11,563 bases of DNA, taken from the NCBI GenBank assembly GCA_003497505.1, contig DNNV01000098.1, positions 1 to 11,563 on the forward strand, in the 5' to 3' direction. The notes below the pieces were generated by a model, which ran no database searches, was not told the origin of the DNA, and worked only from the letters and a program-made list of their open reading frames with translations. The position numbers and the translations under genes were made by a program. Of this stretch, positions 110-11,563 are shown piece by piece. The DNA comes from Clostridiales bacterium (GTDB taxonomy: Bacteria > Bacillota > Clostridia > Tissierellales > Sedimentibacteraceae). Numbering within the stretch: the stretch's first letter is position 1; every line of letters starts with the position of its first letter.

Positions 110-113
110 ACAA

Positions 114-141
114 AAACAACTCCGCGAGTGCGGAGTTGTTT
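114..141. terminator. Bidirectional intrinsic terminator between the GntR-like gene and folD
   Basis: A perfect inverted repeat of 12 bp (114-125 with 130-141) surrounds a GAGT loop. The GC-rich core is CTCCGC/GCGGAG. Reading on the minus strand it is followed by TTTTGTTTATATATT, and on the plus strand by TTCGTTTATAATT, so both sides have a usable T-rich tract. It lies 20 bases beyond the folD stop and 4 bases beyond the plus-strand stop, as expected for a terminator shared by convergent genes. Confidence 0.9.
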
Positions 142-160
142 CGTTTATAATTCTCTATAA

Positions 161-1018
161 TCATATTAAATTATTTGCAATCAGACATCCCTTCAAAACA
201 TGCTTTGCCAACACAGCCGTTGTTACGGAACCAACACCTGCAGGTACCGGAGTTATAAATGCTGCTTTGTCCCTGCACATATCGGTGTCGGCGTCGCCGC
301 ATATATTCCCTTGAGAATCCACGTTTATGCCAACATCTATTACAACAGCGCCTTCTTTCACAAATTTGTCCGTTATCATTTTAGGTCTGCCTATGGCAGC
401 TATTAAAATGTCAGCCTCCGATGCAACCTGCTCAAGATTTTCTGTTTTTGAGTGGCAAATTGTTACCGTTGCATTTTCCCCTAAGAGCAAAAATGCCATG
501 GGCTTACCAACTACCATCGACCTACCTATAACAACGGCTTTTTTTCCTTTAAGCTCTATGTTGTAATATTTCAACAGTTCCATTGCCGCAGTAGGCGTGC
601 AGGGAGCAAAACCTGTTTTATCCCCCTCTGCTATTTTTGCAACGTTCATCGGATTAAAGCAGTCAACGTCCTTTTCAGGGCTTATTACATGCTTGACGGC
701 ATTTTCATCTATCTGTGCAGGCAATGGCCTGAATAATAAAATTCCGTGCACAGATTTGTCGTTGTTTACAGACTCTAATTTTTTTATAAACTCATCCTGA
801 CTTATGTCACGAGGAAGTGACGTAACCTCCCATTCGATTCCGCAGCTTTCCATTCTTTTGACTGCGGCTCTTTCATAGGACAGGTCATCTTCTCTTTCAC
901 CCACCCTTACAATCATCAGCTTTGCCTTTATACTTCCGGCTTTTAATTCTTCTGCCTTTTTTTTCACTTCAAGAGCAATAGCATCAGCAACAGGTTTTCC
1001 TTTCAATAATTCTCCCAT
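161..1018 (-). CDS. folD: FolD-type 5,10-methylene-THF dehydrogenase, cyclohydrolase residues replaced
   Basis: At 285 aa it has the usual FolD length and oxidises 5,10-methylene-THF to 5,10-methenyl-THF with NAD(P) in the cytoplasm. Visible motifs are the N-terminal folate domain with VGEREDDLSYERAAVK (about 39-54), GILLFRPLP (92-100), EKDVDCFNP (115-123), the Rossmann element VVIGRSMVVGKPMAF (about 162-176) and the C-terminal TPVPAGVGSVTTA. Against the canonical pattern 'VG.D.aS..Yv..K', Tyr48 is kept but the catalytic Lys position is Ala52 (a Lys sits two residues later, at 54). The Gln of the canonical 'VQLPLP' is Phe96. Asp119 is kept. Lys and Gln at these sites are known to be needed for the cyclohydrolase half-reaction in bifunctional enzymes, so I infer a mainly monofunctional dehydrogenase, with FchA immediately upstream doing the hydrolysis. 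The ATG is 9 bases after fchA and is preceded by AGGAG at good spacing. It is the last gene of the operon. Confidence 0.95.
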   Translation of the reverse strand: MGELLKGKPVADAIALEVKKKAEELKAGSIKAKLMIVRVGEREDDLSYERAAVKRMESCGIEWEVTSLPRDISQDEFIKKLESVNNDKSVHGILLFRPLPAQIDENAVKHVISPEKDVDCFNPMNVAKIAEGDKTGFAPCTPTAAMELLKYYNIELKGKKAVVIGRSMVVGKPMAFLLLGENATVTICHSKTENLEQVASEADILIAAIGRPKMITDKFVKEGAVVIDVGINVDSQGNICGDADTDMCRDKAAFITPVPAGVGSVTTAVLAKHVLKGCLIANNLI

Positions 1019-1027
1019 TATGCGCTC

Positions 1028-1663
1028 CTATTCCTTTATATTGATTATGTTTAAAACCTTTAAATATATTTCATCGGCAAGCCTTGAGCCCTCAAGAACC
1101 AGCCTTTCTGCTTTTTCCTTATTTTCATTTACATATTTCTCATCATTAATGGAATTCAGGTTTATAAGCACGTTTAAGTATGCGCTGTTCAATGCCGCCT
1201 TGAGGCACTGTACTCCCACTCCAACGTCACTTATTATATTTTTCGACGATATGTCTTCTATTTCCTTGTGCATAAGTATTGCATCATAGGTATATTCCAG
1301 AGTTTCCATAGGTGCTGAGCACGCCTTCTTCAGGCATCTCTGAAGCACGTCCTCTTTTTCCCTCTTTTCCTCTTCCGTTACGGAGGGCATGACATAAGCC
1401 CTTGACAAAGGCTCGAAATATTCCGCATCCTTGTCAACCAAATCAACAAGCTTTTCTCTCAGTGCCTCTCCCCTTGCTATAAGCTCATCATGCTTATCCT
1501 GATAATCTATGAATTTTTTCTTTCCTCTGGAAAAATTGGCAACCATCGTATTCAGGGCGATACCCAATGCTGCTGTCAGCGCCGCCGCACCTCCGCCTCC
1601 AGGTACCGGCTGCTTTGATGCAAGCAGTGCTGCAAAGCTTCTGCATGATTCTTGTGTAAGCAT
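1028..1663 (-). CDS. fchA: Methenyl-THF cyclohydrolase, formimino-THF cyclodeaminase family (FchA)
   Basis: This 211 aa, mostly helical cytoplasmic protein matches the cyclodeaminase/cyclohydrolase (FTCD_C) family, whose stand-alone members are about 205-215 aa. Hallmarks are the glycine-rich folate-binding turn PVPGGGGAAAL at residues 19-29 and the SDVGVGVQCLKAALNSA stretch in the C-terminal third. Family members convert 5,10-methenyl-THF to 10-formyl-THF, or deaminate formimino-THF. There is no formiminotransferase domain, and no histidine- or purine-degradation gene is adjacent. Given fhs and folD in the same operon, the cyclohydrolase role is favoured. The start ATG follows GAGGTG by 4 bases and lies 12 bases after the channel gene. 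The protein probably compensates for the loss of cyclohydrolase residues in the FolD encoded next to it. An additional formimino activity cannot be excluded. Confidence 0.93.
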   Translation of the reverse strand: MLTQESCRSFAALLASKQPVPGGGGAAALTAALGIALNTMVANFSRGKKKFIDYQDKHDELIARGEALREKLVDLVDKDAEYFEPLSRAYVMPSVTEEEKREKEDVLQRCLKKACSAPMETLEYTYDAILMHKEIEDISSKNIISDVGVGVQCLKAALNSAYLNVLINLNSINDEKYVNENKEKAERLVLEGSRLADEIYLKVLNIINIKE

Positions 1664-1675
1664 AATTCACCTCAT

Positions 1676-2416
1676 CTATTTGTAATATACCATGTGATAA
1701 ATAACAGGAATAAGTATTCCACCACCGATGAAATTCCCTATTGTGGCAGGAATTAAATTACCCATCATTCCAAGTAGAGTTATCGACGGGTCAAGCATAG
1801 CCCCCATGGGCAGGAAAAACATATTTGCAACAACGTGCTCATATCCGCAGAATACAAAGAGCATTACAGGAAACCAGCATCCAAGCATCTTTCCGGTCGC
1901 ATCCTTTGATACCGTGGCAAACCACACTCCAAGGGCAACTAAGATATTGCATAATGTAGCCTTGCATAAAACCTGCATAAACGATGCGGATATTTTCGCA
2001 TTTGCCACCTTTATTACTGTTTCCGCCATTTCCGGCTTATCATACACTCCCCCGAAATAGAGCAAGGCAGCAACAAAAACCGAGCCTGCAAAATTTCCGA
2101 TAAGCACCTGAACCATCGTCTTGATATAATCCTTCAATGTTATTTTCTTCTGCAGAAATCCAAATGTCATTAAACAGTTTCCGGTAAAGAGCTCTCCGCC
2201 AACCAATACAACAAGCATGAGACCCACCGGAAACACTGCAGCACGTATGAACAGATTGCCGTAGCCCACTAAAAAGCCCTGTCCTCCCAGCGCTATATAC
2301 AAGCCGGCCATAAAGCTGAGCAGCAGTCTTTTTTCAGTTGTGTAAGATGCCTTTTTGACTGCCGCTTCTATAAGTGCATCTGATGTTTCCCTAGGTGACA
2401 AAGAAAATGAGTTCAA
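1676..2416 (-). CDS. Formate/nitrite transporter (FNT/FocA-family) channel
   Basis: A 246 aa membrane protein with the six-helix FNT pattern; each pentamer protomer of this family forms its own anion pore. Family hallmarks are the N-terminal SPRETSDALIEAAVKKA, GGELFTGNCLM (about 73-83) in the broken helix 2 region, LCKATLCNILVALGVWFA (about 150-167), and the central-pore GYEHVVANM with His194, equivalent to the conserved histidine of FocA. It is shorter than E. coli FocA because the N-terminal cytoplasmic tail is short. The start is TTG (2414-2416), supported by AAAGGGG seven bases upstream; no other start would keep the conserved N-terminal motif. FNT members carry formate, nitrite, hydrosulfide or other small monoacids. 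With formate-THF ligase, FchA and FolD in the same operon, formate is the most likely substrate. Export fits an oxidative C1 route; import would fit an assimilatory one. Confidence 0.9.
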   Translation of the reverse strand: MNSFSLSPRETSDALIEAAVKKASYTTEKRLLLSFMAGLYIALGGQGFLVGYGNLFIRAAVFPVGLMLVVLVGGELFTGNCLMTFGFLQKKITLKDYIKTMVQVLIGNFAGSVFVAALLYFGGVYDKPEMAETVIKVANAKISASFMQVLCKATLCNILVALGVWFATVSKDATGKMLGCWFPVMLFVFCGYEHVVANMFFLPMGAMLDPSITLLGMMGNLIPATIGNFIGGGILIPVIYHMVYYK

Positions 2417-2423
2417 GTTAATT

Positions 2424-2430
2424 CCCCTTT
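2424..2430 (-). promoter_or_regulatory. Ribosome binding site that fixes the TTG start of the FNT channel gene
   Basis: On the minus strand AAAGGGG lies seven bases before the TTG codon at 2416-2414. No ATG or GTG in this frame lies at a suitable position, so this site decides the unusual start. Confidence 0.7.
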
Positions 2431-2441
2431 GCTATTTAATA

Positions 2442-2517
2442 TAGGCTATTGAAAAAGCTCACCTGCTGCATTGCCCATCTCCCGGCGCCTTGCATGGCGA
2501 ACTTTTCCAAAAGCCTA
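2442..2517 (-). repeat. Long imperfect inverted repeat with inner hairpin in the fhs-FNT gap
   Basis: The 138-base gap between fhs and the channel gene is not plain spacer. Arms at 2442-2459 and 2500-2517 can form an 18-bp stem (17 of 18 positions paired when G-U wobbles are counted in the minus-strand RNA). The roughly 40-base loop holds a second hairpin, CGCC (2486-2489) with GGCG (2496-2499). The loop is more GC-rich than its surroundings. No T-tract follows, so it is not a standard terminator. It could be a mobile palindromic repeat unit inserted in the operon, an RNA-processing or stability element setting different transcript levels, or a cis-regulatory leader. No known riboswitch consensus was recognised. 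Confidence 0.5.
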
Positions 2518-2532
2518 AGCCGGCACTATTGA

Positions 2533-2548
2533 GTGACAGCTTGCTCAC
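2533..2548 (-). other. Short hairpin just after the fhs stop codon
   Basis: GTGA (2533-2536) can pair with TCAC (2545-2548), and ACTATT occurs on both sides of it. It lies 7 bases past the fhs stop codon. The stem is only 4 bp and lacks a T-tract, so it may simply be the outer part of the structured element at 2442-2517. Weak evidence. Confidence 0.2.
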
Positions 2549-2554
2549 ACTATT

Positions 2555-4237
2555 TTAAAACAATCCTTTAATTTTTCCGTCAACATCCACATCTATGTTT
2601 TCCGCTGCAGGAACCTTCGGTAATCCTGGCATTTTCATTATATCTCCGGTCAGCGCTACAAGGAATCCCGCTCCTGCAGATATGGTTATGTCCCTGATTG
2701 TTATTTTAAATCCGGTTGGTCTTCCGAGAACCTTCGGGTCATCTGTAAGTGAATACTGGTTCTTTGCCATACATATTGGAAGATTTCCGAATCCCAGCTT
2801 CTCAAAGTTTGCTATTTCTTTGCTGGCCTTCGGTAAAAACTCCACGTCATCAGCTCCGTAAAGCTTCGTAGCTATAGCCTTTATTTTTTCCTTTATGGGC
2901 AGTTCTAAATCATATGTGAACTCAGGAATGCTTTCTTTCTCGGACAATCTCAGCACCTCTTTGGCGAGCTCTTCTCCACCTTCGCCACCCTTGCCCCACA
3001 CTTCAGAAAGAGCCACATTTACTCCTAGTTCCCTGCATTTTCTTCTTATTAAATCAAGTTCAGCTTCTGTGTCTGTAGGGAATCTGTTGATTGCAACTAC
3101 TGCCGGAAGCTTGAATACCTGAGTAATGTTTTCAACATGCTTCAATAAATTCGGGAGTCCTTTTTCCAATGCATCAAGATTTTCAGGACCTAAGTCCGTC
3201 TTTGCGACTCCACCGTTATATTTAAGCGCCTTCACTGTTGCAACAATTACTACGGCACTTGGCTTCAAGCCTGTTTTTCTGCATTTTATGTCTATAAACT
3301 TCTCAGCTCCCAAATCTGCGCCGAAACCTGCTTCTGTTACAACGTAGTCCGCAATTTTACTTGCCATTCTCGTTGCTATTACGGAGTTGCATCCGTGGGC
3401 AATATTTGCAAATGGTCCGCCGTGTATGAATGCGGGTGTTCCTTCAAGAGTCTGAACAAGATTAGGCTTCAATGCATCTTTCAGCAGCGCTGCCATGGCT
3501 CCCTCTGCTTTCAGCTGGCCTGCCGTCACAGGCTGTCCATCTCTTGTATATGCCACTATTATCTTGGCCAGGTTTTCTTTCAACTCTATTATATCATTTG
3601 ACAGGCAGAATACTGCCATTACTTCTGATGCCACTGTTATGTCAAAGCCGTCTTCTCTTGTTACTCCTTCTGTCTTTCCACCGAGACCATCCACTATGTG
3701 TCTCAGCTGTCTGTCATTCATATCAACAACTCTTCTCCACACGACTCTTCTCGTGTCTATGTTGAGATCGTTTCCTTGATGAATATGATTGTCAAGCATT
3801 GCCGCAAGAAGATTGTTTGCTGCTCCTATGGCGTGAAAGTCTCCCGTAAAGTGGAGGTTTATATCTTCCATTGGAACAACTTGTGCATAGCCGCCTCCTG
3901 CCGCTCCTCCCTTAACACCGAATACAGGTCCTAAAGATGGTTCACGCAATGCGATTATTGTTTTTTGACCAAGACGTGAAAGAGCATCTCCCAACCCTAT
4001 GGTTGTTGTTGTCTTTCCTTCGCCTGCAGGTGTCGGATTGATTGCAGTAACCAATATGAGCTTTGCATCCTCTTTGTCCTTAAGCTCGTTCTGCAAATAT
4101 CTGTAATCAACTTTCGCCTTATACTTACCGTAATTTTCAACATATTTGTCCGGTACTTCCATTTTTTCCGCTATGGTATTTATAACCTTCATTGTTGCGC
4201 GCTGCGCTATTTCTATATCGCTTAAAAACTCTGCCAT
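2555..4237 (-). CDS. fhs: Formate-tetrahydrofolate ligase (formyl-THF synthetase)
   Basis: At 560 aa it matches the bacterial monofunctional enzyme in length and motifs. It catalyses formate + ATP + THF to 10-formyl-THF + ADP + Pi and is freely reversible in clostridia, where it can make ATP. Visible features are the P-loop-like [13 protein letters not shown] at residues 67-79, the strongly conserved [19 protein letters not shown] block, [12 protein letters not shown], the glycine-rich [16 protein letters not shown], and a C-terminal [22 protein letters not shown]. No key motif is missing. The ATG is preceded by AGGAGGAAAG. It sits 70 bases after the glyA-like gene and 138 bases before the FNT channel gene. 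In this operon it links 10-formyl-THF to free formate, and therefore to the channel. The direction (ATP-forming formate release or formate activation) cannot be read from the sequence; the import-plus-channel context suggests release. Confidence 0.98.
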
Positions 4238-4276
4238 CTTTCCTCCTGATTATTAAAACTTTACAAATATATTACC

Positions 4277-4296
4277 ACAAATCTGTCCGGATTTGT
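4277..4296 (-). other. Hairpin in the glyA-fhs intergenic gap
   Basis: A perfect 7-bp inverted repeat, ACAAATC (4277-4283) with GATTTGT (4290-4296), has a 6-base loop and lies in the 70-base gap between the glyA-like gene and fhs. On the transcribed strand no run of T follows, so read-through is expected. It may modulate mRNA stability or the relative level of fhs. No convincing internal promoter was seen in the gap. Confidence 0.35.
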
Positions 4297-4307
4297 ATAT
4301 ATTTTTA

Positions 4308-5564
4308 TTAATCTTCAAAACTTCCTGCCGGATAGAGCGGGAAGTTTAAAATCAGGTTCTCCGCATCTTTTTTGCAGCTCATAATATTTGTTTCATCCTC
4401 TGGAGCTGATGCCACTCTGTCCATTATATCTGCAATGATTTTTATTTCTGCTTCCTTCAATCCGCGCTGTGTGATTGAGGTTACTCCTATTCTCACTCCG
4501 CTTGTAACAAACGGTGATGCCGGGTCAAAGGGTATCTGGTTTTTGTTTACGGTAATACCCACACGGTCAAGCGCATTCTGGAACACCTTTCCGCTGATAC
4601 CCTTGGATCTTAAGTCAACCATAACAATATGATTATCGGTGGTGCCGCTGACTATACGGAAGCCTCTGCTTGCGAGCTCTTCTGCCAACGCCTTTCCGTT
4701 TGCCAGCACCTGTCTCATAATATTTTTAAACTCATCCGATGCGGCATGTTTAAACACCCATGACTTAGCTGCCATTGTAGTAAGGTGCATGGAGCCTATT
4801 GAGCCCGGAAATACTCCCTTGTCAATTGCTTTTGCATGCTCTTTCTTGCACAGTATGAAGCCGCTTCTCGGCCCGCACAGCGTCTTTGTAGTTGATGATG
4901 ACACAAAGTCTGCATGAGGTACGGGACTCGGAATAACTCCCGCTGCTACCAGACCGCTCACATGTGCCATATCAACCATGAAATATGCTCCCACTGACTT
5001 TGCTATCCTGCTTATTCTCTCATAATCAATGAGTCTCGGATATGAGCTGCCTCCGGTTATAATTAATTTAGGTCTGATTTCTTCAGCCTTCTTTTCCAAT
5101 TCTTCATAATCAATCATTTCTGTCTTTTCATTGACACCATAAAAATGATATTCATATACCTTAGAAAGAAAGTTCACCGGACTTCCGTGAGTCAAATGCC
5201 CTCCCTGGTCAAGTCTCATGCTCATAACCTTATCTCCGGGATTAAGAATTGCAGCATATACTCCGTAGTTTGCTGAAGAACCTGAATAAACCTGTATATT
5301 TGCATGTTCCGCACCAAATAGTTGCTTCGCTCTCTCAATACCGAGTATCTCCAGCCTGTCAGCTTCGTGCGATCCTGCCTGAAAACGTGCACCGGGATAT
5401 CCTTCAAGTGTCTTGTTTGTAAATATAGAGCCGGACAGCTCCATGATTTCAAGAGAAGCGGTGCTTTCCGATGCAATCATTTCTATATTGTGCTCCTGAC
5501 GCTTTAATTCATCGGCTACTATTTCATATATTTCAAGATCTGATTTATGTGTATATTTTAACAT
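4308..5564 (-). CDS. Divergent serine hydroxymethyltransferase-like PLP enzyme
   Basis: This 418 aa fold-type I PLP enzyme aligns with SHMT over its whole length: IEMIASES (27-34), EGYPGAR (54-60), FGAEHANIQVYSGSSAN (83-99), GGHLTHGSPVNF (121-132), VDMAHVSGLVAAG (197-209), TTKTLCGPRSG (225-235, PLP lysine Lys227), VNKNQIPFDP and TSGVRIG near the C terminus. Set against E. coli SHMT, several conserved residues differ: Tyr55 is Thr52, Tyr64-Tyr65 are Phe61-Gln62, His228 before the PLP lysine is Thr226, and FPGGQGGP reads FPGSIGSM. The carboxylate-binding Arg (SGVRIG), Glu54, His123, Asp198 and His201 are kept. It therefore probably still binds PLP and an amino acid, but may prefer another substrate (for example an alpha-substituted serine or a 3-hydroxy amino acid). 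Folate genes downstream argue that it still feeds THF. ATG is preceded by GGAGG at seven bases, and it is 33 bases after the symporter gene. Confidence 0.85.
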   Translation of the reverse strand: MLKYTHKSDLEIYEIVADELKRQEHNIEMIASESTASLEIMELSGSIFTNKTLEGYPGARFQAGSHEADRLEILGIERAKQLFGAEHANIQVYSGSSANYGVYAAILNPGDKVMSMRLDQGGHLTHGSPVNFLSKVYEYHFYGVNEKTEMIDYEELEKKAEEIRPKLIITGGSSYPRLIDYERISRIAKSVGAYFMVDMAHVSGLVAAGVIPSPVPHADFVSSSTTKTLCGPRSGFILCKKEHAKAIDKGVFPGSIGSMHLTTMAAKSWVFKHAASDEFKNIMRQVLANGKALAEELASRGFRIVSGTTDNHIVMVDLRSKGISGKVFQNALDRVGITVNKNQIPFDPASPFVTSGVRIGVTSITQRGLKEAEIKIIADIMDRVASAPEDETNIMSCKKDAENLILNFPLYPAGSFED

Positions 5565-5597
5565 CTAATGCCTCCGTTGTATGTTATTGTTTTTATT

Positions 5598-7043
5598 TTA
5601 AGCCTTGTTAGCGTTTTTCCTCCAAACATTAGCCTTGTCCTCTATGCTGAATTTATCAGGGTCAAAAACTGGATCGATGCCTTTTGCTTTCTGCTCCTCA
5701 TAATCAACCAAAAGTTTAATTCCTTTATTAGATAAAATAAGTATTGCAATTATATTGAGCCATGCCATTAATCCTACACCCAGGTCTCCACATGTCCAGA
5801 TAAGCTCTCCGGTGTTTACAACTCCCGAAAATGTGGAAACTATGAAAATACATCTCATTGCAAGCTTTGCATTCTTGCTCCCCGGGAACATGTACGACAT
5901 ATTGCTCTCAGCCTGATAGTAATATGCCATCAGGGATGTGAAGGCGAAAAGAAATACTGATATAGCTATGAACGGTGCGCCAAATCCGCTGAATGCTCCG
6001 TCTACCGCAACCTGTGTATATTTAACACCGAAAGGTACGGCAGGCACATTTTCAACAATAAACCCTCCTGCGCCGTCAGATACGTTGTACGCACCTGTGA
6101 GCAATACCATGAACGCTGTTGCGGAACACACCAAAAGTGTATCTACATACACCGAAAATGCCTGTATAAGACCCTGCTTGGCAGGATGCGTACACTCTGC
6201 CGCTGCAGATACTATTGCACCGGAGCCTTGTCCCGCTTCATTTGAATAAACACCTCTTTTTACTCCCCAGGCTATAGCAGTTCCTATAATTCCTCCAAAT
6301 GCCTGATTTACTCCAAATGCAGATGTGAATATTAACGCTATAACTCCGGGAAGCTTCTGAATATTGATAACTATAATAACCAAAGCTACAAGAACATAGG
6401 CAATAGACATGAACGGTGCTATGAACTCTGCAGTCTTTCCTATTCTCTTTACTCCTCCAAATATTATCAATGCAAGCAATACACAGATTATTACACCTGT
6501 TAAGTACGTATTTATTCCAAACGCATTATTTACTGAAGCCACAATGTTGTAAGTCTGAGCACCCGGCATTAGAACCCCGGGTCCCAATATTGTACAGATT
6601 GCAAAGGCCACTGCATACCACTTCTTTCCTATCCCTTGTTCAATGAAATAGGCAGGACCTCCGACATATTCGCCGGCCACTCTTGTTTTGTATGCCTGTG
6701 CCAATGAAGATTCAACAAATGCCGAACCTGCACCCAAAAAAGCAATCATCCACATCCAGAAAACAGCACCGGGACCCCCATAATAAATGGCCGTTGCCAC
6801 TCCTGCAATGTTTCCTACTCCTACACGCCCTCCAACTGTTGTAGCAAATGCCTGGAACGGTGTGACGCCATCCTCGGATTTCTCCTTGCCCAACAAAAGG
6901 CGGATCATTTCCTTAAAAAGCCTTACCTGTGGAAACTTCATTCTGAAAGAAAAATAAACTCCTGCAACAAGACACAGTGCAATAAGCGGCGTGCTCCAAA
7001 CTGCATCATTCAAGGTCTGTACTACTGTTGATATAACATCCAT
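5598..7043 (-). CDS. AGCS-family amino acid:cation symporter (alanine/glycine type)
   Basis: A 481 aa polytopic inner-membrane protein of the alanine or glycine:cation symporter family, whose members couple uptake of small amino acids to Na+ or H+. Family signatures are the N-terminal SFRMKFPQVRLFKEMIRLL (about 32-50), GVGNIAGVATAIYYGGPGAVFWMW (about 75-98), SAFVESSLAQAYK, the highly conserved RGVYSNEAGQGSGAIVSAAAE block in the middle, and AYYYQAESNMSYMF near the C terminus. The length is normal and no signal peptide is needed. ATG is preceded by TTGGAGGAAAAGAT. It is the first gene of the six-gene C1 operon, downstream of a promoter and palindrome at 7106-7133, so it probably imports the amino acid used by the GlyA-like enzyme. 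Characterised members carry L/D-alanine or glycine. Serine-like substrates are possible here but unproven. Confidence 0.95.
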   Translation of the reverse strand: MDVISTVVQTLNDAVWSTPLIALCLVAGVYFSFRMKFPQVRLFKEMIRLLLGKEKSEDGVTPFQAFATTVGGRVGVGNIAGVATAIYYGGPGAVFWMWMIAFLGAGSAFVESSLAQAYKTRVAGEYVGGPAYFIEQGIGKKWYAVAFAICTILGPGVLMPGAQTYNIVASVNNAFGINTYLTGVIICVLLALIIFGGVKRIGKTAEFIAPFMSIAYVLVALVIIVINIQKLPGVIALIFTSAFGVNQAFGGIIGTAIAWGVKRGVYSNEAGQGSGAIVSAAAECTHPAKQGLIQAFSVYVDTLLVCSATAFMVLLTGAYNVSDGAGGFIVENVPAVPFGVKYTQVAVDGAFSGFGAPFIAISVFLFAFTSLMAYYYQAESNMSYMFPGSKNAKLAMRCIFIVSTFSGVVNTGELIWTCGDLGVGLMAWLNIIAILILSNKGIKLLVDYEEQKAKGIDPVFDPDKFSIEDKANVWRKNANKA

Positions 7044-7105
7044 ATCTTTTCCTCCAACATAATTTGTGTTAACGTTATCTGAACCGATCGATCAATCTGT
7101 ATAAA

Positions 7106-7133
7106 ATTATATATCTTTTTACTTTAAGGTAAA
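7106..7133 (-). promoter_or_regulatory. Candidate promoter of the C1 operon
   Basis: On the minus strand a perfect -10 TATAAT (7111-7106) lies 16 bases downstream of a weak -35 TTTACC (7133-7128), about 63 bases before the symporter start codon. It lies between the terminator at 7192-7214 and the first gene of the operon, as needed for independent transcription. The -35 is poor, which would suit an activator-dependent promoter; that is an inference. Confidence 0.55.
7118..7133. promoter_or_regulatory. Operator-like palindrome covering the -35 of the C1 operon
   Basis: Plus strand TTTACTTTAAGGTAAA is a 16-base near-perfect palindrome (7 of 8 position pairs symmetric) overlapping the candidate -35. 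Its position and symmetry suit a dimeric regulator. AraC-type response regulators such as the one encoded next door more often use direct repeats, so a GntR-type or other regulator is an alternative. A second, shorter palindrome, GATCGATC, lies at 7086-7093. Confidence 0.45.
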
Positions 7134-7181: not shown

Positions 7182-7214
7182 AAAATAAAAACCTCTGCAA
7201 TCTACTGGCAGAGG
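7182..7214 (-). terminator. Intrinsic terminator after the kinase/response-regulator operon
   Basis: CCTCTGC (7192-7198) and GCAGAGG (7208-7214) form a 7-bp GC-rich stem with a 9-base loop. On the minus strand it is followed directly by TTTTTATTTTC (7191-7181). It lies 21 bases past the response-regulator stop and separates the two-component operon from the C1 operon. Confidence 0.85.
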
Positions 7215-7235
7215 CACAAACACAATTTTCCGGCA

Positions 7236-7919
7236 TCATTTATATATTTGAATATATGCGGCAGGAGTACTGCCGGTAAATTTCTTGAAATACTTATAGA
7301 AGTTATTCAGGCTTTCATATCCGGTGGATTCAGCAGCTCTCTTTATGCTTTGTCCATCTTCTCTTAAAAGCTTAACCGCATTTTTTATTCTTACCTCATG
7401 AATGTAAGACATTGTTGTAGTTCCTAGAGTCTGCTTAAAAAGTCTCGAAACATGGCTCGGTGAAATATAGAACATACCTGATAATTTCTGTAAATCTATA
7501 TTTTCATAATAATGTTCGTTTATATATTCAAGAATTTCATTCAGAGTATCATTTCCCGTCACCTTCCAGCCTATTACTCTCGTTATTGCCTGCAGGAGCT
7601 GCTTGTATTCAATAGGCTTCAGAATTATATCTCTTGCGCCAAGGCGCAGAGCCTGCTGCGCATACTCAAAGGAATCATAGGCTGTTATGATTATGTAATC
7701 TTTATCCGGAGCATTTTCCATGACCTTGAAGCCATTCATGAACGGCATCAGTATATCTAAAAATACAAGGCTGACATTATTGTTTTTGAGCAACTTCAAT
7801 GCTTCCTCTCCGTTCTCCGCCATACCCACAATTGACACAGGAAGATTTTCCTTTTGTATAAAATGGCTTATTATATTGGAAACTGCCGGTTCATCATCTG
7901 CGATAATCGCGTTTATCAT
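7236..7919 (-). CDS. YesN-type response regulator (receiver + AraC HTH)
   Basis: This 227 aa cytoplasmic regulator has a CheY-like receiver domain (about 1-120) and two AraC-type helix-turn-helix motifs (about 125-227). Receiver residues are the acidic pair Asp8-Asp9, phosphoacceptor Asp55 in VFLDILMP, Thr in IIITAYDS and Lys in ILKPI. The DNA-binding part shows LSGMFYISPSHVSRLFKQTLGTT and AAESTGYESLNNFYKYFKKFTGSTPAAYI, typical AraC signatures. At 227 aa it is a minimal form, lacking the long linker domain of many YesN proteins. Its ATG overlaps the kinase stop as ATGA, with GAGGAAG upstream, so the pair is translationally coupled and almost certainly cognate. It is followed by a terminator and then the C1 operon, which is its most likely target; the target is inference. 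Confidence 0.95.
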   Translation of the reverse strand: MINAIIADDEPAVSNIISHFIQKENLPVSIVGMAENGEEALKLLKNNNVSLVFLDILMPFMNGFKVMENAPDKDYIIITAYDSFEYAQQALRLGARDIILKPIEYKQLLQAITRVIGWKVTGNDTLNEILEYINEHYYENIDLQKLSGMFYISPSHVSRLFKQTLGTTTMSYIHEVRIKNAVKLLREDGQSIKRAAESTGYESLNNFYKYFKKFTGSTPAAYIQIYK

Positions 7920-9418
7920 AGCTCTTCCTCCTGATATATTATTGGAATTTCAACAATAACATTTGTATTTTCATCACTGTTGGATGTTATGACCATATCG
8001 AATTCAGAATTGTATGCTGATTTAAGTTTCTCATAAATCAAGGAAAGTCCATGACCTGAATTTCTTGAAAGCCCTTTGTTTACCCTGTTCAAGGTTATAT
8101 CATTTAATAAAACACCGTTGTTTGATACAGTAATTCTTGCCCTGTCGTGTATTTTCCTGACGGATATTATTATATTCTTTTTATCATCGCTCGGCACGAA
8201 TCCGTGAGAAAATGCATTTTCAACAATGGGCTGTATAAAGTTAAACGGAACTTTGATTTTTTCCATGGTTTCCTCTATATCGTACTGAACATCCAGCTCC
8301 TTTCCGTATCTCAGCCTCTGCAAGTTCAAATAAGTCTCAAGATATTCTATTTCAGAGCTAAGCGTTACAAATTTCAAATCCACAGTCATGGTATATCTGA
8401 ACATCTTTGATAAATCAATTATTGAATTGTAAAGGTCGTACCTGTCTCCGCTCAGAGACATGCTTGCTATTGAATTCAGTGTATTAAACAGAAAATGATG
8501 ATTTATCCGCAAATTTGTTACTTTGTCATTAACTATGTAGAGGTTATTTTTAAGGGTTTCATTTCTTCTTATTTCATCGTTTATTACCTTATCCTTTTTC
8601 TCTATAAGCTGTCTCGATTCATAAAATGAGCAGTAGCTGATGATACTTTTCACGATTTGCTTCAGTAGGCTCTTTATCCCTATAACAGCACTTTCGGGAA
8701 AATCATACAGCTCGTCATGCTTTTCAGTCGTGCGGTCAGATATCAGTATATGCCCCCCTCTTATAGTCCCTAAATTCACACCGTTAAACACAATCGGATA
8801 GCTGAATATTGTCAGCCCATATTCGCAGATAAACTGTTTGTTTTCTTCCTTTTCAAACTTTCTTTGATGAAAGCAGCTGCAGCTGCTTCGGTTATTTACC
8901 GGATCACACTTCAAATTGCAGTAATTCGAGAAATTATTGCTCTGTATTACCACAGACCACATATCATCGTAAATTGTAAACGGAAGACTTATGGCCTCAA
9001 GAAGCGTGGTACGGATAGCTTCAACGGCAGAATATATTATATTGCTCATTGCAGCCTCTGAATTATCGGCACATTCATTAATATTACTTCCGTGAACACT
9101 CAGATCTGAATTATAGCTTACAGGACGAGAAATAAGCAGCTCACTCAACGGCACATCTCCGGTGTTAATTGTCTCATGAACTATATCAGGCTTAAGGTAA
9201 AAGTACATGCCCCTTTCAACATCCTTTTTTTCTCCATCAATATAATATATACCCTTACCTTCCAGTATATATAAGAACTGTTCTATTCCATAGTGAACAT
9301 GCTTTGGCATACGCTTTCCTCTAAGCAGAGAAGTAATGCCTACATTAAAGGATTGAAGTGTTTCCTCATTGTTAGTATGAATCCAGTTTATATGTCCCCA
9401 CTCCGTTTTTTGGATCAT
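7916..9418 (-). CDS. Cytoplasmic sensor histidine kinase: cupin + PocR + LytS-type kinase
   Basis: A 500 aa protein with no membrane segment. Residues about 25-100 form a cupin with motif 1 (GKRMPKHVHYGIEQF, His40, His42, Glu46) and motif 2 (ERGMYFYLKPDIVHETIN, His81), so a bound metal and small ligand are plausible. Residues about 120-265 match a PocR-type sensory domain: a cysteine cluster (Cys167, 171, 180, 182, 198) followed by GLTIFSYPIVFNGVNLGTIRGGHIL. A short coiled region (265-300) leads to the HisKA_7TM/LytS-type H-box INHHFLFNTLNS, with His308 as likely phosphoacceptor (the usual Pro before it is His307), the N-box QPIVENAFSHGF and a GHGLSL G-box. PocR domains in anaerobes often regulate use of alcohols, diols or methylated C1 donors. 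The start ATG follows GGAG by nine bases. It overlaps the response regulator gene and presumably senses an intracellular substrate of the downstream C1 operon. Confidence 0.9.
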   Translation of the reverse strand: MIQKTEWGHINWIHTNNEETLQSFNVGITSLLRGKRMPKHVHYGIEQFLYILEGKGIYYIDGEKKDVERGMYFYLKPDIVHETINTGDVPLSELLISRPVSYNSDLSVHGSNINECADNSEAAMSNIIYSAVEAIRTTLLEAISLPFTIYDDMWSVVIQSNNFSNYCNLKCDPVNNRSSCSCFHQRKFEKEENKQFICEYGLTIFSYPIVFNGVNLGTIRGGHILISDRTTEKHDELYDFPESAVIGIKSLLKQIVKSIISYCSFYESRQLIEKKDKVINDEIRRNETLKNNLYIVNDKVTNLRINHHFLFNTLNSIASMSLSGDRYDLYNSIIDLSKMFRYTMTVDLKFVTLSSEIEYLETYLNLQRLRYGKELDVQYDIEETMEKIKVPFNFIQPIVENAFSHGFVPSDDKKNIIISVRKIHDRARITVSNNGVLLNDITLNRVNKGLSRNSGHGLSLIYEKLKSAYNSEFDMVITSNSDENTNVIVEIPIIYQEEEL

Positions 9419-9734: not shown

Positions 9735-10436
9735 TTAGTGTTCATCAATATACTTATTAAGTATATCGTGATAAACATCAATTCTGGTATCCTGAGGGTC
9801 GGTTTCTTCATTTAAGACAAGGTCAACCATATGGTGCGGAATTTTTCCTCCAACAGCCATGGACTTGATACATGAAACACAATATACCGCAACATCCCGG
9901 CATGGCATTTGCGCCGCACGCTTTTTTTGAAATTCTGTTACCCTTTCAATTGAAACCTTCGGGTAAAAATTATCACCGCAACATATAGATTTAACACCAC
10001 TGTAATCAGATTCAATAATTTCTGCATTCATTTTACGCAAAATGCTCCTGACCGCTGCATGAACCTGAGGCTTTGGGCGGTATGAGCAAGAATCATGAAC
10101 AGAAACCGTCATTCCGATGTAATCAGGCAGAGGCAAATTTTCAATGCTGTCCAGTACCTCCCAAAGAGAGATAGTCTGAACTCCTTCGTATAAAGAACGA
10201 AACCTTCTGTCACAGCCTGCACAGTTATTAATTATAACAGCACCCTTCGGAAGCTGCGGGTAGTGATGGCAGCAAATATTGTGCATCTTCACCTCTCCAA
10301 AGTATTTGTTCAGCATATTCAATATTTTTCCCGCCGCATCGTGTTTGTAAACACTTAACGCACATCCCGGATTAAAGTAGCATTTCTCCATATTAATGCC
10401 GGATATTTCTATGCTTGGAATTATAACACCGCTCAT
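9735..10436 (-). CDS. CCG-domain (HdrB-like) cysteine-rich Fe-S protein
   Basis: A 233 aa soluble protein with two cysteine-rich repeats of the CCG type found in heterodisulfide reductase subunit B and related oxidoreductases. Set 1 is Cys25 (NPGCALSVYK), Cys55-Cys56 and Cys72-x2-Cys75 (NNCAGCDRRF). Set 2 is Cys117 (HDSCSYRPKP), Cys152-Cys153-Gly (CCGD) and Cys186-x2-Cys189 (VYCVSCIK). In characterised homologues such cysteines hold a non-cubane [4Fe-4S] cluster that handles thiols or disulfides. No transmembrane segment, flavin site or separate ferredoxin motif is visible, so a partner electron carrier would be needed. The ATG overlaps the ogt stop (ATGA), with GAGGAGTG just upstream; an internal ATG at residue 16, immediately before EKCYFNPGCAL, is an alternative start. 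Being last in an alkylation-repair operon is unusual for this family. The substrate is unknown. Confidence 0.8.
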   Translation of the reverse strand: MSGVIIPSIEISGINMEKCYFNPGCALSVYKHDAAGKILNMLNKYFGEVKMHNICCHHYPQLPKGAVIINNCAGCDRRFRSLYEGVQTISLWEVLDSIENLPLPDYIGMTVSVHDSCSYRPKPQVHAAVRSILRKMNAEIIESDYSGVKSICCGDNFYPKVSIERVTEFQKKRAAQMPCRDVAVYCVSCIKSMAVGGKIPHHMVDLVLNEETDPQDTRIDVYHDILNKYIDEH

Positions 10437-10912
10437 TCGACACTCCTCGCATTAATCATTCCGCCCTGCTCAAGATCAAGAAGAGCCTTTTTTAATTCAA
10501 GTCCTCCCGCATAGCCTGTGAGCTTCCCATCGGTACCGATAACACGGTGGCACGGCACCACGATCATAATCGGATTCTTACCGTTTGCCGCACCGGCTGC
10601 ACGGCTTGCCCTCGGACTTCCCGCAGCCTCGGCCATCTGCCTGTATGTGCGTGTTTCACCATATGGAATACGGCACAGTTCATTCCACACCCGCTTCTGA
10701 AACTCCGTACCGTGGAGCTCGTACGGGAAATCAAAGCCTTTGCGCATTCCCTTCATATATTCGCAAATTTGTTCATATGCCATGTCTGAAAGAGATGAAC
10801 GTTCATTTTCAGCATCAATTTCACCGGATGTCCTAATGCTTATAACCGACGTTTCCGTATACCCTATTTTCAAAATACCGAATTCAAAATTATAAAATGC
10901 ATATTTTATCAT
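10433..10912 (-). CDS. ogt: Methylated-DNA-[protein]-cysteine S-methyltransferase (Ogt-type)
   Basis: A 159 aa suicide repair protein that moves the methyl group of O6-methylguanine (and O4-methylthymine) in DNA to its own cysteine. The C-terminal domain is canonical: GTEFQKRVWNELCRIPYGETRTYRQMA (68-94), the Arg-containing SRAAGAANGKNP (103-114), and the active-site VVPCHRVIG with acceptor Cys121, followed by LTGYAGGLELKKALLDLE. The N-terminal domain (1-66) is short and poorly conserved, as is usual. ATG overlaps the ada-like stop as ATGA and is preceded by AAAGGAGAA. Its stop overlaps the next start in the same way. Together with the Ada-type sensor it splits the functions of E. coli Ada over two proteins, as in Bacillus AdaA/AdaB. 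Confidence 0.95.
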   Translation of the reverse strand: MIKYAFYNFEFGILKIGYTETSVISIRTSGEIDAENERSSLSDMAYEQICEYMKGMRKGFDFPYELHGTEFQKRVWNELCRIPYGETRTYRQMAEAAGSPRASRAAGAANGKNPIMIVVPCHRVIGTDGKLTGYAGGLELKKALLDLEQGGMINARSVE

Positions 10913-11457
10913 TTTCTATTCTCCTTTCTGTACGCTGAAGGAGGCATGCCTGTTTCGCTTTTAAAAAAACTATAAAATGATGACAAACCTCCAAATCCTA
11001 CCGCATATGCTATATCAACAATATCTTCATCCGTTTCTGTCAACAGGCGCCTTGCTTCTTCTAAACGTCTGCCTTTCATGTATTCATGCAGCGTCATACC
11101 GTATTCATCCTTGAAAATTTCAGACATCCTACGCTGAGAAACACCTAACTGCGTGAATCCCTGCCTAAGTTCACTTCTCTCTTTGAAGCACTCATCCAAA
11201 AGATGTTTGGCCTTTTCCGCTATTTCCTTCATTGGATGATAATCCAAGAGGTCGCTCCTGCACCGCTTGCAAGGCCGGAATCCCGCGTTTCTGGATTCCT
11301 CCGCAGTATTAAAAAAACGGACATTTTCGCGCTTTGGCGTTTTTGACTTGCAAGATGGTCTGCAGTAGATTCCGGTTGAATTAACTGCATAGAAAAATAT
11401 GCCGTCGTAGGATTCATCATTTTCTGAAACAGCCCTCCACATTTCTTCTTGCGTCAT
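10909..11457 (-). CDS. adaA: Ada-type methylphosphotriester sensor / AraC-family activator (AdaA-like)
   Basis: From the ATG at 11457 the protein has 182 aa. The N-terminal Ada zinc domain carries Cys32 and Cys36 (GIYCRPSCKSKTP) and Cys63 and Cys66 (GFRPCKRC). Cys32 corresponds to E. coli Cys38, which takes a methyl group from phosphotriesters and turns the protein into an activator. Residues about 80-180 form the AraC DNA-binding domain (LGVSQRRMSEIFKDEYGMTLHEYMKGRR; IVDIAYAVGFGGLSSFYSFFKSETGMPPSAY). There is no methyltransferase domain; that role is taken by ogt directly downstream. An upstream TTG 11 codons earlier is open, but ATG is chosen because AAAGGAGG lies seven bases before it and it overlaps the preceding stop as ATGA. 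The protein probably activates its own operon on alkylation damage; the operon promoter is outside the window. Confidence 0.95.
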   Translation of the reverse strand: MTQEEMWRAVSENDESYDGIFFYAVNSTGIYCRPSCKSKTPKRENVRFFNTAEESRNAGFRPCKRCRSDLLDYHPMKEIAEKAKHLLDECFKERSELRQGFTQLGVSQRRMSEIFKDEYGMTLHEYMKGRRLEEARRLLTETDEDIVDIAYAVGFGGLSSFYSFFKSETGMPPSAYRKENRK

Positions 11458-11563
11458 TTCCTGCCCTCCTTTTTCTTCTTTGGTACACAATCACTTATTT
11501 CAGGTATTGCACCTCCCGCAACAGCCCATAAATACAGACTTGCTACAGTTCCGTAGGGAGAAT
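11454..11563 (-). CDS. C-terminal fragment, AlkA-like DNA-3-methyladenine glycosylase
   Basis: Only the last 35 codons lie in the window (first complete codon at 11561, stop TGA at 11456-11454). The fragment begins SPYGTVASLYLWAVAGG, matching the C-terminal helix of AlkA/HhH-GPD base-excision glycosylases (compare 'RPWRSYA..h.W' in E. coli AlkA and the 'SPYRT.A..YLW' form of related proteins). It ends in a lysine-rich tail. The stop overlaps the ada-like ATG, so it is the gene preceding it in the operon. Context (Ada, Ogt) strongly supports a role in excising alkylated bases. The catalytic Asp and HhH motif lie outside the window. Confidence 0.7.
   Translation of the reverse strand, partial: SPYGTVASLYLWAVAGGAIPEISDCVPKKKKEGRK
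11465..11472 (-). promoter_or_regulatory. Ribosome binding site that fixes the ada-like start
   Basis: Minus-strand AAAGGAGG is seven bases before the ATG at 11457. It lies inside the end of the glycosylase gene and downstream of the alternative TTG at 11490, so it argues for the shorter 182 aa product. Confidence 0.75.

Follow-up and report, generated by a model that had tools for sequence, protein, structure and literature searches.

The window analysed here, an 11,563-nucleotide stretch of a Sedimentibacter assembly (GCA_003497505.1, contig DNNV01000098.1), carries on its minus strand eight genes in the order sensor kinase, response regulator, AGCS symporter, serine hydroxymethyltransferase (SHMT)-like enzyme, formate--tetrahydrofolate ligase (Fhs), FNT-family channel, methenyl-tetrahydrofolate (methenyl-THF) cyclohydrolase (FchA) and methylene-THF dehydrogenase/cyclohydrolase (FolD). 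We propose, with moderate confidence, that this operon is dedicated to the fermentation of a fully α-substituted serine, most likely 2-hydroxymethylserine or 2-methylserine. The host assembly comprises 2.54 Mb in 406 contigs, is 75% complete and places the window on a 15.6-kb contig.

The operon and its flanking signals

The six metabolic genes are closely packed. From the AGCS gene to folD the intergenic gaps are 33, 70, 138, 12 and 9 bases, which therefore leave no room for a further gene of ordinary size; the six genes, their order and the absence of an unrelated intervening gene were given correctly by the initial annotation. That annotation drew the unit at 161..7133, which captures the six-gene operon and leaves out the regulator pair (7236-9418) that belongs with the system. 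The kinase (7916..9418) combines a cupin domain, a PocR ligand domain and a His_kinase/HATPase module (Pfam PF07883, PF10114, PF06580 and PF02518), and its gene overlaps by 4 bases that of the AraC-type response regulator, which has receiver and HTH_18 domains (7236..7919; PF00072, PF12833). Between this pair and the AGCS gene lies a hairpin with a T run (7184..7225; -12.3 kcal/mol, z -2.6), a probable terminator that a terminator pattern scan missed and that 4 of 200 shuffles match in folding. An intrinsic terminator with a 13-pair stem and a T-rich tail stands right after folD (113..142; -24.2 kcal/mol, z -8.6). Bounded by these two structures, the six metabolic genes look like a transcription unit of their own. 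A promoter-like site, TTTACC-16-TATAAT, lies 5' of the AGCS gene (7106..7133) and matches 10 of 12 consensus positions; the region has 32 such sites, where shuffling gives 26.9 on average, and the consensus match is all that singles this one out.

The AGCS sodium:amino acid symporter (5598..7043) scores 453 bits on TIGR00835 (cut-off 273), and the single PDB sequence that it matches is AgcS (6cse/6csf), an alanine symporter. Fhs (2555..4237) reaches 929 bits on NF010030 (cut-off 652). The FNT/FocA-family anion channel (1676..2416) matches PF01226 at 235 bits and TIGR00790 at 206 bits, below the cut-off of 232; its relatives in the PDB are FNT proteins of the formate, nitrite and other types, and thus formate specificity is only proposed. 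FchA (1028..1663), of the FTCD_C family, matches PF04961 at 210 bits and NF045657 at 173 bits, below the cut-off of 275, and its closest solved sequence is the methenyl-THF cyclohydrolase 7vg4. FolD (161..1018) carries PF00763 and PF02882 and falls below the NCBIfam curated cut-off in each of the 25 models listed, of 31. All three of these proteins are under NCBIfam curated cut-offs and well over those of Pfam. With Fhs, FchA and FolD encoded together, the window has the clostridial folate one-carbon (C1) module.

The 134 bases that separate fhs from the channel gene (2419..2552) form a strongly folding spacer (-50.3 kcal/mol, z -4.1). There is no Rfam match at the gathering threshold anywhere in the window, this spacer included, and a known riboswitch was set aside on that basis. 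Nor does the spacer look like a dispersed repeat: an exact 21-base piece of it matches only 2 of 237 loci, both of which overlap the window itself.

A separate clade of SHMT-like enzymes

The operon's SHMT-like pyridoxal phosphate enzyme (4308..5564) passes the SHMT subfamily model NF000586 with 518 bits against a cut-off of 335. The initial annotation had asked whether the genome holds another, canonical glyA, and it does: a copy on a different contig (G000:C20) scores 604 bits on PF00464, compared with 461 for the operon copy, and the two proteins are 54% identical. The operon enzyme aligns without gaps to 2w7d, which we take to be the B. stearothermophilus enzyme, across 383 residues. Positions below follow 2w7d unless window numbering is named, the latter being higher by one (window position 52 is 2w7d position 51). 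The residues that we presume to be required for catalysis (E54, H123, D198, H201, K227 and R358, window numbering) are all retained. Around them, however, the enzyme carries the substitutions Tyr51Thr, Ala52Leu, Tyr61Gln, His225Thr, Gly257Ser and Leu259His, yielding a signature that reads T52, Q62, T226 and S258 in window numbering. In a set of 98 canonical rows Tyr51, Tyr61, His225 and Gly257 each reach 95% conservation or more. All four are replaced here; the enzyme has the family profile of a canonical GlyA and lacks these four residues. Among 142 distinct GlyA rows, window position 52 is Thr in 44 and Tyr in 98; this split defined the groups, and the conservation of Tyr51 in canonical rows is therefore by definition and not independent evidence.

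Two of these positions appear to bear on donor choice. Passages of PMC6411801 name Tyr55 and Tyr65 of SHMT, versus Thr60 and His70 of α-methylserine hydroxymethyltransferase (EC 2.1.2.7), as donor-specificity residues, and state that the Tyr55Thr SHMT accepts D-Ser besides D-Ala; PMC4761611, in the part available to us, agrees on Tyr55Thr. From a reading of the motifs, Tyr55 and Tyr65 would correspond to positions 51 and 61 here. Thr, as in EC 2.1.2.7, is found at the first position in all 38 sequences of an anaerobe clade to which the operon enzyme belongs, as is Thr225; the second position is Gln in 30 (the window among them), His in 7 and Phe in 1. Further likenesses come from plasmids. The glyA of Shinella plasmid p2_Teo12, whose host strain is described in passages of PMC10848231 as TRIS-degrading and as having a 2-methylserine hydroxymethyltransferase (mSHMT), shares Thr51, His61, Thr225, Ser257 and His259 with relatives on five other plasmids. 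Canonical rows conserve 130 positions; the anaerobe clade departs from them at 13, all six plasmid mSHMT-type rows do so at 11, and both groups at 6, an overlap with a hypergeometric P of 1e-4 (6e-4 without Thr51). By these residues, the operon SHMT carries the marks of a 2-methylserine hydroxymethyltransferase.

The shared signature is likely convergent. A 79-row tree unites all 38 anaerobe sequences in a single group (support 100/100). The plasmid mSHMT-type rows, six in number, make up a separate group (100/100) placed among canonical rows. After removal of the signature columns, a joint clade of the two was rejected (p-AU 0.023, 61 rows), a result that argues for convergence over shared ancestry with the mSHMT-type enzymes of proteobacteria; the test set 27 rows against 34 under LG+G4 only, with a grouping picked after the first tree. 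The canonical rows in the two trees (35 and 34) were hand-picked from the 98, and the second tree held 21 of the 38 clade rows. The operon enzyme thus belongs to a specialised clade apart from canonical GlyA, and the separateness of that clade, its kept catalytic residues and its mSHMT-like signature can be read from the alignments themselves.

The clade appears to be extensive. Whole-genome searches gave matches at E 1e-145 or better in 19 genomes among 249 from the order and in 10 among 391 in a draw from the class, three genomes, including the window's own, being counted in both. In a phylum draw of 398 genomes four passed 1e-140, of which three have Tyr51, leaving the window's own genome alone. 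Of 7,997 candidate clusters scored in a protein database, 1,028 reach E 1e-150, the window protein included; the best 120 of these (100-70% identical) all keep T52, Q62, T226 and S258 together with the six catalytic residues, and the 12 source-named members among them are all called serine or glycine hydroxymethyltransferase. Identical rows were merged, and two loci of genome G999 both fall within the 38. Two sequences were left out of all counts: L050, which is 67% identical to the window enzyme and whose frame ends at residue 241, and L068, a canonical-like piece of 20 residues (52%). Among 271 plasmid records with a match, 13 were examined (H1, H2, H3, H5, H6, H7, H8, H14, H16, H17, H34, H43 and H44); besides the anaerobe H1, six have Thr51 and six Tyr51.

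Gene neighborhoods and the C1 module

Partner genes were counted within 8 kb of the 38 clade loci by BLASTP against proteins of the window or of named relatives, which misses distant homologues in clade and control loci alike; the controls were 65 canonical loci longer than 9 kb, drawn from broader taxa and with more flank (927 kb versus 442 kb). The kinase and the response regulator are each present at 22 of 38 clade loci, and the AGCS symporter at 15 (a second AGCS type at 3), with none of these at any canonical locus. Of the kinases beside other clade members, the 10 that were scanned all show cupin, PocR and His_kinase matches, although the cupin of L040 is below the Pfam cut-off. D-serine ammonia-lyase accompanies six clade loci and no canonical locus, compared with about 0.13 expected under random gene placement. 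These six lyases pass the curated cut-off on a profile scan and fall in four lineages of the 79-row tree with differing gene orders, the gene lying on the opposite strand in two sister cases. A D-amino acid dehydrogenase homologue occurs at one canonical locus and at no clade locus. Among the plasmid loci, D-serine ammonia-lyase is annotated at five of the six with Thr51, and FolD plus PurU at three; four of the six with Tyr51 are annotated, none with D-serine ammonia-lyase and one with L-serine ammonia-lyase.

These linkages bear on a first alternative, that the operon performs ordinary serine or glycine catabolism, with a divergent but normal SHMT, an AGCS protein importing serine or glycine, and the C1 unit leaving as formate with ATP formation. 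Oxidation of serine- or glycine-derived C1 units to formate with ATP is ordinary clostridial biochemistry, the SHMT subfamily model is passed with the catalytic residues kept, and the single solved AGCS relative transports alanine. Linkage to D-serine ammonia-lyase, however, is not expected of an L-serine or glycine enzyme, four residues nearly invariant in canonical GlyA are all replaced, and the genome has its separate glyA. We consider this alternative unlikely. Serine and glycine, which the initial annotation had listed for testing together with alanine, are thus probably not the substrates, and an α-substituted serine is likelier (α-methylserine was also on that list); alanine as a C1 source was set aside, since the operon contains no chemistry for it. 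The parts of the operon are ordinary but for an unexpected enzyme: L-serine is probably not what the first of its enzymes acts on.

Other partners appear at clade loci and at none of the 65 canonical ones: an M20 hydrolase at 11 of 38, DUF3100 and LysO-like proteins at 10 each, and an α/β hydrolase at 4. An M20 amidohydrolase, a DUF3100 protein and a LysO-like membrane protein form a trio in L038 (1355-3874), L041 (9400-11868), L054 (11280-13781) and others, which may serve uptake and deacylation of an acylated or conjugated precursor that feeds the enzyme. One locus without a sought partner, L125 (NZ_CP154629.1), is listed as an Acetoanaerobium noterae plasmid of 2.63 Mb, is almost unannotated and may be a chromosome; its clade enzyme follows leucine-synthesis genes.

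C1 genes are rarer partners. Fhs and FNT channels each occur at 4 of 38 clade loci, FchA and FolD at 3 each and PurU at 1; at the 65 canonical loci Fhs, FchA, FolD and PurU are absent and FNT occurs once. A search for the operon's gene order across genomes, as proposed by the initial annotation, finds the clade gene with C1 genes in three lineages, with orders that differ: the window with G021 and G014, then G041, and Bacilliculturomica massiliensis, where FolC is also present. The G021 stretch has Fhs and the channel only, and the G014 contig ends inside fhs, making it a fifth case of Fhs linkage beyond the four counted. The scarcity of Fhs, with none seen in the available flank of 34 of the 38 clade loci, would suit a second alternative, namely that the enzyme acts on another α-substituted amino acid or performs THF-independent D-amino acid chemistry (as an aldolase, racemase or aminomalonate decarboxylase), the C1 genes being passing neighbors. 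Precedents exist: as described in part of PMC7782822, AibC, although annotated as an SHMT, decarboxylates amino-methylmalonate and showed no hydroxymethyltransferase activity on the four substrates tested, and a THF-independent α-methylserine aldolase is known (PMC7918591, in the portion seen). Against it, C1 genes have joined the clade in three lineages in different orders and Fhs, FchA and FolD occur at none of the 65 canonical loci; and plasmid row L207, which looks AibC-like from its monooxygenase-type neighbors, has Tyr51, not Thr. We regard this alternative as quite improbable.

The initial annotation held that the cluster would be ordinary housekeeping if its glyA, folD and fhs were the only ones in the genome. 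For fhs and folD the operon copies are indeed the only ones found in the 75%-complete assembly; for glyA they are not. A second fhs or folD copy may have been lost from this assembly: in the relative G021 (one contig, 98% complete) there are four full fhs copies, the operon's included, and two folD genes lie elsewhere. A second FTCD_C gene in the window's assembly likely encodes a formimino-THF cyclodeaminase; its neighbor is an imidazolonepropionase-like gene. The sole copies would also suit the opposite direction, in which the channel takes in formate, Fhs activates it, and methylene-THF either hydroxymethylates D-alanine or D-serine or feeds housekeeping C1 metabolism. Fhs, FchA and FolD are reversible, and with sole copies of fhs and folD the block may also serve housekeeping. 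G015 has, behind PanB and without the clade enzyme, an Fhs-channel-FchA-FolD block whose proteins are 71-91% identical to those of the window, which means that no fixed tie exists between the C1 block and this substrate; in G017 such a block, with its fhs, precedes a metF-like gene and further genes. A biosynthetic direction fits poorly, however, with the linkage to an importer-type gene, to a ligand-sensing two-component system and, in relatives, to D-serine ammonia-lyase, and the incomplete assembly and the three further full fhs copies of G021 weaken the argument from sole copies. We give this alternative little credence.

Within Sedimentibacter the Fhs-channel block recurs in other settings. 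In G024 (L210 5874-13739), Fhs and a divergent channel gene lie beside genes for urocanase, glutamate formimidoyltransferase, an imidazolonepropionase-like protein and a cyclodeaminase. Because formimino-THF is a breakdown product of histidine, this context likely fixes the direction there, from histidine C1 units to formate. In L200 3162-11658 (G021) and L217 1787-10877 (G014), genes for a TRAP transporter, a PanE-like reductase, the ketopantoate hydroxymethyltransferase PanB, Fhs, the channel and FolD are co-directional, with FchA in addition in L217. PanB also precedes Fhs and the channel, without TRAP genes, in L213 1749-6782 (G015; with FchA and FolD) and L211 5778-9234 (G018). DctP, PanE-like and PanB proteins are profile-confirmed in L200, as is PanB in L213, and the other rows are assigned by resemblance. 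The L200 and L217 arrangement looks like a pathway for pantoate breakdown to formate and ATP, with the same logic applied to another quaternary carbon; in the open-licence PMC literature (titles and abstract starts, a weak negative) we found nothing on pantoate catabolism of this type.

Several further neighbors were noted. The G007 fhs lies beside a NuoF-like gene. L201 6982-12185 and L218 4558-9761 pair Fhs and the channel with what appears by eye to be a sodium:neurotransmitter-type symporter-like gene, and both have an isopropylmalate/homocitrate-synthase-like gene, with a profile basis in L201 only. The genes 5' of the window's regulators (window 9735-11490 and L035 55-819) probably form an alkylation-repair group: they encode a CCG-domain protein (a weak match below the cut-off), an O6-methylguanine methyltransferase-like protein and an Ada-type regulator, and an HhH-GPD DNA glycosylase gene lies just past them.

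Proposed pathway and comparison with known systems

We propose that the cupin-PocR kinase and the AraC-type regulator would sense the substrate or a product, and that the AGCS protein would import the quaternary serine or exchange it against a D-amino acid. The SHMT-like enzyme would then move the hydroxymethyl group to THF, releasing D-serine or D-alanine. Both products have precedent: D-alanine is formed from L-2-methylserine (in the text seen of PMC7782822), and D-serine from 2-hydroxymethylserine (in passages of PMC10848231). FolD would oxidize the resulting methylene-THF to methenyl-THF, FchA and FolD would yield 10-formyl-THF, and Fhs, running in reverse, would convert this to formate and ATP, with export of formate by the FNT-family channel. 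The D-amino acid would be used elsewhere, by the D-serine ammonia-lyase encoded on another contig here and beside the enzyme in some relatives. The description of the module as self-contained was accordingly too strong, as no gene of the window accounts for what becomes of the D-amino acid. Linkage to D-serine ammonia-lyase favors 2-hydroxymethylserine for the members that have it; for the window itself, 2-methylserine is just as possible. TRIS gives rise to 2-hydroxymethylserine. The rumen carrier L050 and carriers with gut-type names suggest that a natural source of the substrate exists.

The gene set and the conserved linkages are directly visible, and from them we infer the substrate, direction, ATP yield and transporter specificities. 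The dedicated catabolic pathway of the initial annotation finds backing in a gene set that fits import, C1 release, oxidation, ATP formation and export, and meets a difficulty in the sole fhs and folD. Its catabolic direction gains from the D-serine ammonia-lyase linkage in relatives and from the fhs and channel genes beside histidine-degradation genes in a Sedimentibacter relative, the direction here being deduced from this context. Several observations nevertheless weigh against fermentation of a quaternary serine. The reversible C1 enzymes could assimilate formate, and their linkage to the clade gene is confined to the three lineages. None of the sought partners was seen in the available flank of 11 of the 38 clade loci (L042, L045, L046, L053, L125, L133, L140, L165, L166, L167 and L170); seven of these are flanked on one or both sides by less than 2.6 kb, but at L042, L045, L125 and L170 the flank exceeds 5.6 kb in either direction. 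D-serine ammonia-lyase does not distinguish genomes with the clade enzyme (20/26) from those without (22/34), so only close linkage counts, and in the window's genome the gene lies on contig C6, unlinked to the operon. At the second donor-specificity position the window has Gln where His would be expected of an α-methylserine hydroxymethyltransferase, and the mSHMT comparison rows were named by similarity in the TRIS paper and are not the assayed Aminobacter or Ensifer enzymes. No assayed enzyme of the clade was found in the open-licence PMC literature (listings and some passages).

A broader possibility, which we advance tentatively and hold slightly less likely than its converse, is that the anaerobe clade independently evolved a hydroxymethyltransferase for quaternary serines, that Sedimentibacter and two other lineages combined it with an ATP-conserving folate module, and that the Fhs-channel block of Sedimentibacter is a reusable plug-in, found also behind PanB and beside histidine degradation, through which several hydroxymethyl groups on quaternary carbons are fermented. 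The candidate donors may include 2-hydroxymethylserine, 2-methylserine and pantoate. If correct, this would mean that a large enzyme clade is mislabelled in databases (the 1,028 clusters, of which the best 120 all have the signature) and that evolution converged on an active site matching a laboratory-engineered mutation, and it would point to an unrecognized substrate in sludge and gut. As stated for TRIS in passages of PMC10848231, the usual transamination or oxidative deamination is blocked where the carbon that bears the amino group is fully substituted; an anaerobic pathway that brings along an ATP step would therefore be a new type of fermentation. Titles and abstract starts in open-licence PMC, a weak negative, describe no anaerobic counterpart.

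The closest known system is TRIS cluster II, which according to passages of PMC10848231 joins mSHMT, D-serine dehydratase (DsdA), FolD, PurU and DsdX on plasmids of Pseudomonas and Shinella. Both systems have an SHMT look-alike with Thr51, Thr225 and Ser257, a FolD for oxidizing folate-bound C1 units towards formate, and their own transporter and regulator, and the window's relatives share the linkage to D-serine deamination. Cluster II is proteobacterial, however, and its PurU hydrolyses formyl-THF without ATP, whereas the window has Fhs and no PurU match; no Fhs, FchA or formate channel is annotated at the plasmid loci. It also has His at position 61, a LysR-type regulator, a different transporter and an enzyme of a different clade, as the rejected joint grouping indicates. 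D-serine dehydratase is part of that cluster, but is absent from the window and lies near the enzyme in only the six clade loci described above. The α-methylserine hydroxymethyltransferases (EC 2.1.2.7) of Aminobacter and Ensifer, known to us through citing papers, share Thr at the first donor-specificity position and differ in having His at the second, where the clade mostly has Gln; common descent of the clade with the plasmid mSHMT-type rows is rejected. In the purinolysis of Clostridium acidurici, as described in part of PMC3519856, 10-formyl-THF is likewise converted to formate with ATP formation as an energy-conserving step; there the step belongs to purine breakdown, whereas the proposal here is that a quaternary serine feeds it by way of a linked operon. 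Finally, the engineered Tyr55Thr SHMT of Streptococcus thermophilus (Hernandez 2015, as cited in passages of PMC4761611 and PMC6411801) has the same Tyr-to-Thr change, which widened its donor use to D-serine. That enzyme is a laboratory mutant; in the clade the change is natural and is accompanied by further substitutions.

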